A DNA stretch of 46,145 bases, from positions 1-46,145 of the forward strand of contig JACRNW010000011.1 of the NCBI GenBank assembly GCA_016214745.1, read 5' to 3'. Numbering within the stretch: the first letter of the stretch is position 1; every line of letters starts with the position of its first letter. A program made the position numbers and the translations under genes. The DNA is from Candidatus Falkowiibacteriota bacterium. GTDB lineage: Bacteria > Patescibacteriota > Patescibacteriia > XYB2-FULL-38-15. The notes below the pieces were generated by a model. It saw only the letters and a list, made by a program, of their open reading frames with translations, searched no databases and was not told the origin of the DNA. Of the stretch, positions 10,549-32,901 are shown piece after piece.

Positions 10549-12380
10549 GTAGATTTAGAGAGAGAAGAAATTTTCGCGAACCGCCAAGCGGCGGCGATCG
10601 CCGTTTAAAACTTATTCGGGTTATTATTTTTTTGTTCGCGGGAGTTATTGCTTTCCGCCTTTTTAGTTTACAAGTTTTGAGCAATGATTTTTATTCAGCG
10701 CTCGCGGCCGGACAGCACGATATTTATAAAGAAATTTTTCCCGAACGGGGAAGAATTTTGATGCAAGAGAGCGGCGGCAGTGAATCTTCAAATGAAAAAT
10801 TATATCCTTTAGCCACTAATCAATCGTTGTATCTCATTTATGTTGATCCCCGGAAAATAAAAAACGCCGATGAGCTGGCGGAAAAGTTAGTTGATATTTT
10901 ATATATGAGAGAAGTGAAAGAAGACGAAGGGTTGACCGCGGAAGAAATTGAAGCCATAGAAAAATCCGAGAAAGAAAAACTGAAAGAAGAATTTTTGGCA
11001 AAATTAAAAAAAGAAAACGATCCCTACGAACCCCTGCGCCACGGAGTAACCGAAGCGTCACTCGCGAAAATTAAAGAACTTGGAGCCGAGGGGATCGGTT
11101 ATATTGAAGAAGAGGCGCGTTATTATCCGGAAAATAATTTGGGCAGTCATTTTTTGGGATTTGTCGGAACGAAAGATAATAAAAAAGTCGGGCAATACGG
11201 GCTTGAAGGTTATTTTGAAAAAGAGCTCGGCGGCGTTCAGGGTTTTCTCGCCTCGGAAAAAGATGTGGGCGGTCGGTGGATTCCGGTTTCCGGACGAGAG
11301 TGGCAAAAAGCCGAGGATGGCGCGGATATTGTTATCACGATTGATCGGAACATTGAATATTTTGCTTGCGGAAAATTAAAAGAGGCCGTGGAAAGGAATG
11401 ATGCCGACGGAGGAACGGTTATTGTCATGGATCCGAAAACCGGAGCGATCATCGCGATGTGTTCTTATCCTGATTTTAATCCGAATGAATACGCCAAAGT
11501 GGAAGACATTAATATTTACAACAATCCGGCGGTTTTTTCTCAGTATGAACCAGGATCAATTTTTAAAGCCATCACGATGGCCGCGGCGCTGGACGTGGGA
11601 AAAATTACGCCGACGACCACTTATGTTGATGAGGGAGAAATAAAAGTTGATGATCGCACGATTAAAAATTCTGATTTGCAAGCGTATGGCACGCAGACCA
11701 TGACCCAAGTTTTGGAGATGTCCCTGAATACCGGAGCGGTTTTTGCCGTCGCGCAAATTGGTCCGGATATTTTTAAAAAATACGTGGAGGATTTTGGATT
11801 TGGGACGGAAACGGGGATTGAGCTTGATTTTGAAAATTCCGGCAGTATCAGCTCTTTGGATAAAAAGGGAAAAATTTGGAGCGCGACCGCCTCTTTTGGC
11901 CAGGGCATTTCCGTCACGCCGATTCAGGTCGTAACCGCGTTTTCGGCAATCGCGAACGGTGGGAAATTAGTTAAGCCGTATATTGTTGACCGGATTATAA
12001 AAAGTGACGGTGAGGTAATTAAAACCGAGCCAAAAGTTGTTCGTCAGGCGATTTCCGGAAGAACGTCGGCGCTTTTGGGAGGGATGCTTGTTTCCGTGAT
12101 AGAAAATGGTCATGGCAAGCGGGCTGGTGTTCCGGGCTATTATGTGGCGGGAAAAACCGGTACGGCGCAAGTCGCAAAAAAAGACGGCAGCGGTTATGAG
12201 AAAGACGTGACTATCGGATCGTTTATCGGTTTCGCGCCCGTGGAAGATCCAAGGTTTGTTATGTTGACAAAGATAGATCATCCAAGATCAACAATTTGGG
12301 CCGAAGCTACAGCCGCGCCGTTATTTGGCGAAATTGCCAAATTTATGCTAAACTATTTAAAGGTACCTCCGAGCAGGTAA
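10545..12380 (+). CDS. penicillin-binding protein 2 / FtsI-type transpeptidase
   Basis: 611 aa. A basic cytoplasmic N-terminus is followed by one membrane anchor (about 23-45), the pedestal region (60-260) and the transpeptidase domain. All three catalytic motifs are present: S338-I-F-K341 (EPGSIFKAITMA), S393-L-N395 (MSLNTGA) and K537-T-G539 (AGKTGTAQVAK). An insertion of charged helix (about 120-160, EDEGLTAEEIEAIEKSEKE) lies in the pedestal. It cross-links peptidoglycan outside the membrane. No separate PASTA domains. The start overlaps the upstream hypothetical gene by 4 bases; murF follows after a mobile-looking insertion, so an ancestral transpeptidase-murF order has probably been interrupted. 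Elongation (PBP2) versus division (FtsI) cannot be decided from the sequence. Confidence 0.92.
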   Translation: MSRFRERRNFREPPSGGDRRLKLIRVIIFLFAGVIAFRLFSLQVLSNDFYSALAAGQHDIYKEIFPERGRILMQESGGSESSNEKLYPLATNQSLYLIYVDPRKIKNADELAEKLVDILYMREVKEDEGLTAEEIEAIEKSEKEKLKEEFLAKLKKENDPYEPLRHGVTEASLAKIKELGAEGIGYIEEEARYYPENNLGSHFLGFVGTKDNKKVGQYGLEGYFEKELGGVQGFLASEKDVGGRWIPVSGREWQKAEDGADIVITIDRNIEYFACGKLKEAVERNDADGGTVIVMDPKTGAIIAMCSYPDFNPNEYAKVEDINIYNNPAVFSQYEPGSIFKAITMAAALDVGKITPTTTYVDEGEIKVDDRTIKNSDLQAYGTQTMTQVLEMSLNTGAVFAVAQIGPDIFKKYVEDFGFGTETGIELDFENSGSISSLDKKGKIWSATASFGQGISVTPIQVVTAFSAIANGGKLVKPYIVDRIIKSDGEVIKTEPKVVRQAISGRTSALLGGMLVSVIENGHGKRAGVPGYYVAGKTGTAQVAKKDGSGYEKDVTIGSFIGFAPVEDPRFVMLTKIDHPRSTIWAEATAAPLFGEIAKFMLNYLKVPPSR

Positions 12381-12381
12381 T

Positions 12382-12859
12382 CTACAAATTACAAATCATT
12401 TACAAATATACAAATAGCAAAATGACGGAGGGTTGTAAAAAAGATGTAAATAAGGTTGTCTACCCGGAATTAAGTTATAAAATAGTCGGTTTAATCTTTG
12501 ATGCGTACAACTCGCTTGGTTATGGTTATCAAGAAAAATATTACGGGCGAGCAATTGAGTTGGCCTTTAAGGAAAACGGAATTAAATTCATCGGTCAGCA
12601 GTTTGTGTCCATAAAAATTAATGGGAACACAATAGGTAGATATTTCTTAGATTTTTTGGTGGAAGATAAAATAATTTTAGAACTGAAAGTGGGTAATTAT
12701 TTTGACAAAACTAACATGGGCCAAGTTTTAGGATATTTAAAAGCTACGGACAAAAAATTAGCAATCATCGCAAACTTTACAAGAACGGGAGTAAAATTTC
12801 GCAGAATTTTAAATATTAATTGAGGATTTGTATATTTGTATTAAATTTGTAATTTGTAG
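12382..12859. mobile_element. GxxExxY element with 36-bp terminal inverted repeats
   Basis: The left end (12382-12417, beginning CTACAAATTACAAATCATTT) and right end (12824-12859, reverse complement beginning CTACAAATTACAAATTTAAT) are imperfect inverted copies that bracket a single GxxExxY gene. The element starts one base after the TAA of the transpeptidase and stops 5 bases before the murF ATG. A 110-bp version with the same two ends and no gene lies at 32792-32901 in the opposite orientation; each end matches at 35 of 36 positions. No clear target-site duplication is seen. Confidence 0.7.
12422..12823 (+). CDS. GxxExxY protein, PD-(D/E)XK nuclease-like
   Basis: 133 aa from the ATG at 12422. 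An in-frame upstream start inside the transpeptidase gene is rejected because it reads through the terminal repeat. The name-giving motif G35-YQ-E38-KY-Y41 is present, followed by RYFLDFLVEDKIILELKV with D77 and E87-x-K89, the layout of a PD-(D/E)XK nuclease core. The family is common in Patescibacteria and many other bacteria, and its biological role is not established. Here it is the only gene between terminal inverted repeats, so it may be the mobilising enzyme or a passenger. Its codon use is A/T-rich like its neighbours, unlike the GC-rich cassettes. Confidence 0.85.
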   Translation: MTEGCKKDVNKVVYPELSYKIVGLIFDAYNSLGYGYQEKYYGRAIELAFKENGIKFIGQQFVSIKINGNTIGRYFLDFLVEDKIILELKVGNYFDKTNMGQVLGYLKATDKKLAIIANFTRTGVKFRRILNIN

Positions 12860-12864
12860 TAGAT

Positions 12865-14154
12865 ATGAAAAAAATAGTTCAAAAAATTTTATATGTTTTG
12901 GCCCGTGCAATTTTAAAAAAATATAAACCGGAAGTGGTGGGTATTACGGGGAGTATGGGTAAAACTTCAACTAAAGAGGCAGTTTTTGCCGTGTTGTCTT
13001 CCAAATTACGCGTGCGCCAGAATTTGAAAAATTATAATAACGAGCTTGGCGTGCCGCTTTCCATTTTGGGAGTTGAATCGGGGCATAAATCTATTTTGAA
13101 GTGGCTCGGCGTGATTTTTCACGGCCTGAAATTAATTTTATTCCGCGACGCCGATTATCCGCAGATTTTAGTTTTGGAAATGGGAGCCGATCATCCGGGC
13201 GACATAAAATATTTAACAGAACTCGCGCCGTGCAAAATCGGCCTCGTAACCGGCATCGGCCCGGCTCATTTGGAATTTTTTGAAAGCATTGAAAAAATTA
13301 TTAAAGAAAAAAGAACGATTGTGAGCCATCTTCGGCCGGAAGGTTTTGCGGTTTTAAATCGTGACGACGAAAAAGTTTTTGAAATGCGGGACAAAACGCG
13401 GGCTAAAGTTTTGACTTACGGTTTTTCCGCCGACGCGGAAGTCCGGGCTCAGGAAGAGGGGATGATTGGCGAAGGCGTGGAAATCAAAGGAATGAATTTT
13501 AAGTTAAGCTACGCCGGCGCAATGGTGCCGATTTTTCTGCCGGGCGTTTTGGGCCGTCAGCATATTTACGCGGCGCTTGCCGGAGCGGCGGTTGGAATTA
13601 TTTACGGCATGAATTTGGTGGAAGTCGCCGAGAGTTTAAAAAGATATCAGGCGCCAAAAGGCCGAATGAATTTGGTCCCTGGCATCAAACGGTCTTTGAT
13701 TATTGATGATACTTATAATGCTTCGCCGATTCCAACCGAGGTAGCGCTTGAAGTGATGAAGTCAATAAAATTGCCCGCGGAAGATGATAAAAAATTCGCG
13801 GTATTGGGAGATATGCTGGAACTTGGAAGTTTTAGCGAAGAAGGGCATAAGCAGGTCGGCCGAGCCGCGGCGGGAAGCGGCGTTGATTATTTGGTGACAG
13901 TCGGCGAACGGTCGCGCGATATTTCCCGAGCGGCGCTTGGAGCCGGAATGAATGAAGACAGAGTCTCCAATTTTCCGACGCCGGAAGAAGCCGGACTTTT
14001 TGTTCAAGGAAAAATGAAACAAGGCGATATAGTTTTAGTAAAGGGTTCGCAGGGGATGAGGATGGAAAAGGTTGTAAAGGAACTTATGGCCGATCCTCTG
14101 CAGGCCTGTGAACTTTTAGTCAGGCAAGACGCGTCGTGGGCGTGCAAGAGATAG
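12865..14154 (+). CDS. murF: UDP-N-acetylmuramoyl-tripeptide--D-alanyl-D-alanine ligase
   Basis: 429 aa. Mur ligase layout: P-loop GITGSMGKTST (26-36), NYNNELGVPLSIL, the central domain with VLEMGADHPGDIKYLTEL, GIGPAHLEFFESIEKIIKEK and the C-terminal domain with KGRMNLVPG, DDTYNASPIPTEVALE, AVLGDMLELG and LVKGSQGMRMEKVV. The DDTYNASP and GDMLELG motifs are characteristic of MurF. It adds D-Ala-D-Ala to UDP-MurNAc-tripeptide in the cytoplasm. The last about 20 residues (QACELLVRQDASWACKR) look like an unrelated tail. It begins 5 bases beyond the right end of the GxxExxY element, and a terminator follows at 14180. Confidence 0.93.
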   Translation: MKKIVQKILYVLARAILKKYKPEVVGITGSMGKTSTKEAVFAVLSSKLRVRQNLKNYNNELGVPLSILGVESGHKSILKWLGVIFHGLKLILFRDADYPQILVLEMGADHPGDIKYLTELAPCKIGLVTGIGPAHLEFFESIEKIIKEKRTIVSHLRPEGFAVLNRDDEKVFEMRDKTRAKVLTYGFSADAEVRAQEEGMIGEGVEIKGMNFKLSYAGAMVPIFLPGVLGRQHIYAALAGAAVGIIYGMNLVEVAESLKRYQAPKGRMNLVPGIKRSLIIDDTYNASPIPTEVALEVMKSIKLPAEDDKKFAVLGDMLELGSFSEEGHKQVGRAAAGSGVDYLVTVGERSRDISRAALGAGMNEDRVSNFPTPEEAGLFVQGKMKQGDIVLVKGSQGMRMEKVVKELMADPLQACELLVRQDASWACKR

Positions 14155-32791: not shown

Positions 32792-32901
32792 CTACAAATT
32801 ACAAATTTAGTACAAATATACAAATCCTTGCTAACACGTTAATTTAATAGAAACACACTCCACCACTATTTGTATATTTGTAAATGATTCGTAATTTGTA
32901 G
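32792..32901. mobile_element. 110-bp geneless derivative of the GxxExxY element
   Basis: The left end (CTACAAATTACAAATTTAGT...) matches the right end of the 12382-12859 element, and the right end (reverse complement CTACAAATTACGAATCATTT...) matches its left end, each at 35 of 36 bases. It is thus an inverted, internally deleted copy of MITE type. Like the full element it starts one base after a TAA stop. Confidence 0.75.

Follow-up and report, generated by a model that had tools for sequence, protein, structure and literature searches.

The window analysed here is a 46,145-nucleotide stretch of DNA in which positions 12382–12859 contain a GxxExxY gene flanked by inverted ends of 34 nt each. 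The left arm (12382–12415, forward strand) consists of a C followed by TACAAAT at positions 12383, 12390, 12401, and 12409 with spacers of 0, 4, and 1 nt (C-TACAAAT-TACAAAT-4nt-TACAAAT-1nt-TACAAAT), and the right arm (12826–12859, reverse strand) mirrors it with four copies of ATTTGTA, the reverse complement of TACAAAT, spacers of 1, 4, and 0 nt and a final G. The first-pass annotation described 36-bp terminal inverted repeats; the inverted ends are real, but they measure 34 nt and are 88% complementary. The GxxExxY gene (12422–12823, forward strand, 133 amino acids plus stop, likely start ATG at 12422) is the only open reading frame inside the element, and no strand-transfer transposase is encoded. 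Upstream lies a host gene for a PBP transpeptidase (PF00905, 10545–12380, forward strand) whose stop codon (12378–12380) is 1 nt before the left arm, and downstream lies a murF-type Mur ligase host gene (12865–14154, forward strand) with its ATG at 12865, 5 nt past the right arm, which agrees with the initial placement between the transpeptidase stop and the murF start. The 15-mer end sequence CTACAAATTACAAAT (two or fewer mismatches) occurs four times in the window compared with 0.16 expected, a number reached in 0/100 shuffles. These matches are both ends of the 12382–12859 element and both ends of a geneless copy at 32792–32901, and the geneless derivative suspected elsewhere in the window thus carries the same two arms. 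The gene and its two arrays almost certainly form one unit.

The encoded protein matches TIGR04256 with 95.4 bits (cut-off 35, model positions 1–115 of 116) and PF13366 (PDDEXK_3) with 90.1 bits (cut-off 22, model positions 2–116 of 117). The catalytic residues are E28, D67, E77xK79, and Q91xxxY95 in domain numbering, and the E, D, ExK, and QxxxY motifs are retained in 91–93 of 92–94 copies (D67 in 93/94, E77 in 91/94, and K79 in 93/94). An AlphaFold2 model of the protein (pLDDT 88.9) has Cas4 SSO0001 and lambda exonuclease as its nearest folds in Foldseek (E 1e-4), and a PDB sequence search with the protein returned no significant match. Profile scores, modelled fold, and catalytic residues all bear out the original assignment as PD-(D/E)XK-like: the protein is, as judged from its model, a member of this superfamily with an intact active site and predicted nuclease activity. 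The fold and the D…ExK…QxxxY motif are common to GxxExxY and the Cas4, lambda exonuclease, and RecB-type nucleases, from which GxxExxY differs in being a minimal single domain that is tied to its own flanking arrays.

Geneless copies and empty sites

The genome that contains the window (G000, 923 kb in 19 contigs) carries 43 matches to the end sequence (one or no mismatch) compared with a single match for the reversed pattern. The matches resolve into 19 two-ended intervals: 17 are geneless (66 or 103–112 bp), one bears the gene, and the remaining one overlaps and duplicates a nested copy; an extra geneless pair (C10:27497–27562, 66 bp) brings the geneless total to about 18. Most copies are therefore geneless, yet the ends are common to them. 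The copy at 32792–32901 (110 bp, unstranded, MITE-like) consists of both arms, with one heptamer altered to TACGAAT, a 42-nt core, and a CATT-type arm on the right. It folds into a DNA hairpin (z −5.0), and geneless copies generally fold into hairpins better than shuffles. The 17 geneless copies are located mostly between co-directional genes, often 0–6 nt from a gene end, and in either orientation. Single-ended remnants are also found, and a lone arm of the window's element lies between two ATP synthase genes (L003:1501–1534, C4:33681) with no second arm found there.

In G000, the flanks read AAT before the element's CTAC and TA after its GTAG. No target-site duplication was found in the 19 intervals (one of which is the nested duplicate), and there was no excess of flank identity at lengths 2–8. 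Some insertion sequence families likewise lack target-site duplications. Filled and empty sites could be compared with the sister genome G001, where a geneless copy and a gene-bearing element are both missing cleanly: at the gap orthologous to 32792–32901 the stop-to-ATG spacing is 6 nt, and at the site of a second GxxExxY element of G000 (C13, L032, TACGAAT heptamers) the host genes overlap as ATGA. The many copies with common inverted ends and the empty orthologous sites are those of insertion sequences and MITEs; the family departs from both in showing no target-site duplication and from insertion sequences in encoding no strand-transfer transposase.

The pbp–murF site itself is occupied in both G000 and G001 (L031 and L033), with TACAAAT heptamers in the former and TACGAAT heptamers in the latter. 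The two GxxExxY proteins are 55% identical compared with 88% for the flanking MurF, which may reflect fast evolution or replacement. In several relatives pbp and murF are 16–45 nt apart, showing that the operon predates the insert, in line with the early idea that an ancestral cell-wall operon had been split without harm. The pbp–murF gap of other relatives (L262:2776–3042 and L279:2492–2653) holds unrelated palindromic or heptamer repeats, and the junction therefore tolerates insertions.

Heptamer arrays around GxxExxY genes

Genes of the TIGR04256 family are distributed patchily (64/240 genomes of the class), often in several copies per genome and including broken copies. An unsupervised search for inverted 7-mers within 130 nt of the gene identified arrays that beat all 60 shuffles at 65 of 94 GxxExxY domains, compared with 3/126 fake-gene controls, which lie mostly in coding DNA, and 0/18 Y1 genes, which are the fairer control. 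An earlier run with 50 shuffles identified 67/94 domains, and inverted arrays beat direct arrays 82 to 8. The association of GxxExxY genes with inverted ends that was predicted from the window is thus consistent, although significant arrays are absent at 29/94 genes, in a set of mostly metagenome assemblies and a gene sample skewed to high-scoring matches. Nearly all of 30 named loci from a genome collection, scanned with a four-sequence protein alignment and overlapping the 94-domain set (L239 is the G001 element), carry arrays, including loci in Scalindua (Planctomycetota) and Asticcacaulis (Alphaproteobacteria). By eye, arrays were also seen at plasmid-borne genes of Bacteroides, Bernardetia, Sphingomonas (between fabD and fabG), and Prevotella.

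The heptamer consensus is usually YRCNNAW but varies between elements, even inside one genome. The conserved left and right ends anticipated by the first-pass annotation are accordingly replaced in relatives by arrays that vary with the protein lineage; a single terminal inverted repeat sequence across relatives was rejected, and a search with CTACAAATTACAAAT alone would miss most cases there. Arrays in the YRCNNAW register are present at 76/94 domains, where 587 heptamers point the expected way and 71 the other way, under a register chosen by hand and a score that counts against heptamers on the other strand. Agreement between the two arms is 90% for heptamer letters and 46% for spacers (379/392 and 12/70, respectively, for the G000 copies). 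Agreement at the heptamers and not at the spacers is the pattern that protein sites, rather than a paired stem, would be expected to show. An RNA stem was rejected as the conserved feature, the spacers not being complementary.

The same data bear on the very unlikely alternative that the protein binds the arrays near the start codon, as DNA or as mRNA, so as to regulate the transcript or to process it, much as RNase III acts on the stems of 23S intervening sequences (IVS), with mobility being incidental. Many left arrays do stop beside the start codon of the gene, the elements lie inside operons, and hairpin folding of the geneless copies exceeds that of shuffles. However, arms that match at heptamers and not at spacers are unlike a selected RNA stem, and the geneless copies retain both arms with no gene to regulate and without keeping orientation.

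The heptamer follows the protein lineage. Heptamer distance correlates with protein-tree distance (Mantel r 0.58), a value as high being reached in 0/2000 permutations within host families (mean 0.37, maximum 0.52), and on the tree of 76 proteins with registered arrays heptamer position 5 needs 8 changes compared with 21 when shuffled. Elements of the same genome carry different heptamers, each in line with its own protein. Part of this co-segregation is expected without recognition because gene and arms are physically linked. Linkage leaves unexplained why the roughly eight heptamers of the two arms remain similar to one another when the spacers do not, and why the heptamer differences within a genome match each element's own protein. 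Residues that co-vary with heptamer positions 1 and 5 lie near the N-terminal helix (V2, V3, S8, and V12), a lead only, given that shared ancestry was not removed.

Arrays located away from GxxExxY genes follow the resident heptamer as well. Triple TACGAAT arrays were found in 41/230 genomes, with a reversed control of zero in every listed genome. Genomes with a GxxExxY gene are enriched in them (odds ratio 9.8, p 7e-10); the gene-flanking arrays inflate this figure, but nearly all array-bearing genomes with the gene also have arrays at off-gene places. The better evidence is a gradient: off-gene TACGAAT arrays are present in 10/13 genomes with the exact resident heptamer, in 5/12 with a near variant, and in 3/13 with other heptamers (exact compared with other, p 0.017), and the arrays occur in 13/168 gene-free genomes. 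An exception is G126, which has the most TACGAAT arrays (24) and yet carries three GxxExxY genes with CAC/CGC heptamers. Overall, the GxxExxY protein probably recognises its own heptamers, and the joint change of enzyme and heptamer in relatives suggests that the enzyme recognises the ends of its own element. G126 (L144–L154) and G111 (L155–L160) both contain numerous TACGAAT arrays but no GxxExxY gene that matches them, and the array spacing is genome-specific.

Movement of the element and related systems

The anatomy of the element, its generality, the intact catalytic residues, the co-segregation of protein and heptamer, the matched orphan copies, and the presence/absence pattern between sister species are observed, whereas protein–DNA binding, cutting, and a transfer step are inferred. 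The reading that is slightly favoured is a small selfish element in which the nuclease would bind the arrays at the element's ends and cut there, with movement completed by host repair; that GxxExxY is the mobility enzyme of the element has about an even chance. Several GxxExxY molecules would bind the heptamers at both DNA ends and pull the ends together, the PD-(D/E)XK site would cut at or close to the array ends, and host repair would finish the process, either excising the element or copying it to another site. MITE-like families would arise because the protein also acts in trans on those geneless copies whose heptamer is the same.

Recurrence of the same junctions across host families makes a homing-type process the main rival. 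In it the nuclease would cut the uninterrupted junction of conserved genes (such as where rpsG, pbp, or atpD ends), recombination between flanking homologies would copy the element in, and the heptamers would serve to shield the occupied allele from cutting or to regulate the gene. The rpsG–fusA junction is filled in host families f27, f24, f8, and f60, the pbp–murF junction in f1 and f9, and a tsaE-like junction in f9 and f58. The insertions are clean, without duplications, and the GxxExxY genes are co-directional with their neighbours (74:3 upstream and 77:6 downstream), an orientation that also fits reliance on host transcription. Homing is nevertheless unlikely: the roughly 18 geneless copies of one genome lie at unrelated junctions, and recurrent sites may result from common descent or from how few places a compact genome tolerates. 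Elements at common junctions include L052, L056, L061, L063, L072, and L097 (rpsG–fusA) and L031, L033, and L070 (pbp–murF).

Small palindromic intergenic multicopy repeats have been attributed to a gene among them in the case of REP/REPIN sequences and the RAYT (Y1, HUH) transposase (PMC3733652). The window's family is similarly multicopy, palindromic, intergenic, and free of target-site duplications, and its ends happen to be CTAC…GTAG; unlike REP/RAYT it is without an HUH domain, and its ends consist of three to five heptamers rather than a GTAG-tagged hairpin. It is quite unlikely that GxxExxY is mere cargo and that the arrays terminate a MITE-like family whose mover is something else, either a Y1/RAYT transposase or a function of the host. 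Geneless copies do outnumber gene-bearing ones, Y1-domain genes are present in G000, and four-helix-bundle genes sit in similar ends. Against this, arrays are independent of Y1 given GxxExxY (p 0.76 and 0.38), the association of GxxExxY with arrays holds in genomes with and without Y1 (p 7e-6 and 0.003), and no Y1 locus is flanked by arrays (0/20 and 0/18). A single shared mover does not fit because the elements of one genome differ in heptamer. The Y1/RAYT transposase was rejected as the mover for lack of arrays at Y1 genes and of an independent association.

Other known systems resemble the element in part. Transposons such as Tn7 (TnsB) and En/Spm carry multiple protein-binding sites at each end, mirrored at the other end, but these systems use DDE transposases and sites longer than heptamers; the window's element shares the mirrored site arrays and differs in that its sole protein is a PD-(D/E)XK nuclease. 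TAACTGA heptamer arrays of the Beggiatoaceae, Cyanobacteria, and Bacteroidetes are intergenic and often located just 5' of start codons, with their spread unexplained; these arrays are direct and have no linked gene, and translational regulation was proposed for them (PMC4679880). Both are intergenic heptamers, those of the window being inverted and gene-linked. Searches of the open-access literature found no description of the array ends reported here and nothing relevant on the repeats or PF13366, and among 5.39 million open papers GxxExxY proteins turned up in two passing mentions only.

A further parallel is offered by four-helix-bundle genes (TIGR02436, S23/IVP), which are present in 99/144 genomes of the class. 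Inverted 7-mer arrays beat 60 shuffles at 22/28 of these genes, with motifs of a different class (TTAGCTT, TCAGGTG, GTGAGTA, and AAGAATT). Since these genes share the architecture without a nuclease, the nuclease is not required for it, which weakens a purely nuclease-driven mechanism; the arrays may serve for recognition only, with the DNA chemistry coming from elsewhere. In Coxiella, heptameric repeats (GACAGAT) precede the open reading frame of the 23S rRNA IVS (PMC4990558). Like such sequences, which contain an S23p/four-helix-bundle reading frame, the window's element is about 0.4 kb long, has one small open reading frame and inverted ends, and is of a kind regarded as selfish; unlike them, it encodes an unrelated protein, a nuclease, has heptamers on both arms, and is located between the protein genes pbp and murF rather than inside an rRNA gene.

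A tentative, somewhat less probable generalization is a minimal type of mobile element across several phyla, in which one small protein (a nuclease or an S23-type four-helix bundle) would recognise element-specific heptamer arrays as inverted ends, protein and heptamer would diversify as self/non-self codes, and the element would move without a classical transposase and seed geneless copies, the rRNA IVS being of the same kind. GxxExxY is a widespread orphan family, for which the link to cognate heptamer arrays offers a directly testable role. It also explains one type of short interspersed repeat and makes many natural protein–site pairs available for decoding recognition. Through the four-helix-bundle parallel, the long-standing question about the spread of rRNA intervening sequences becomes open to test. 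The four-helix-bundle loci surveyed are L196–L225, of which L225 lies in the window's own genome (G000, C9:38675).
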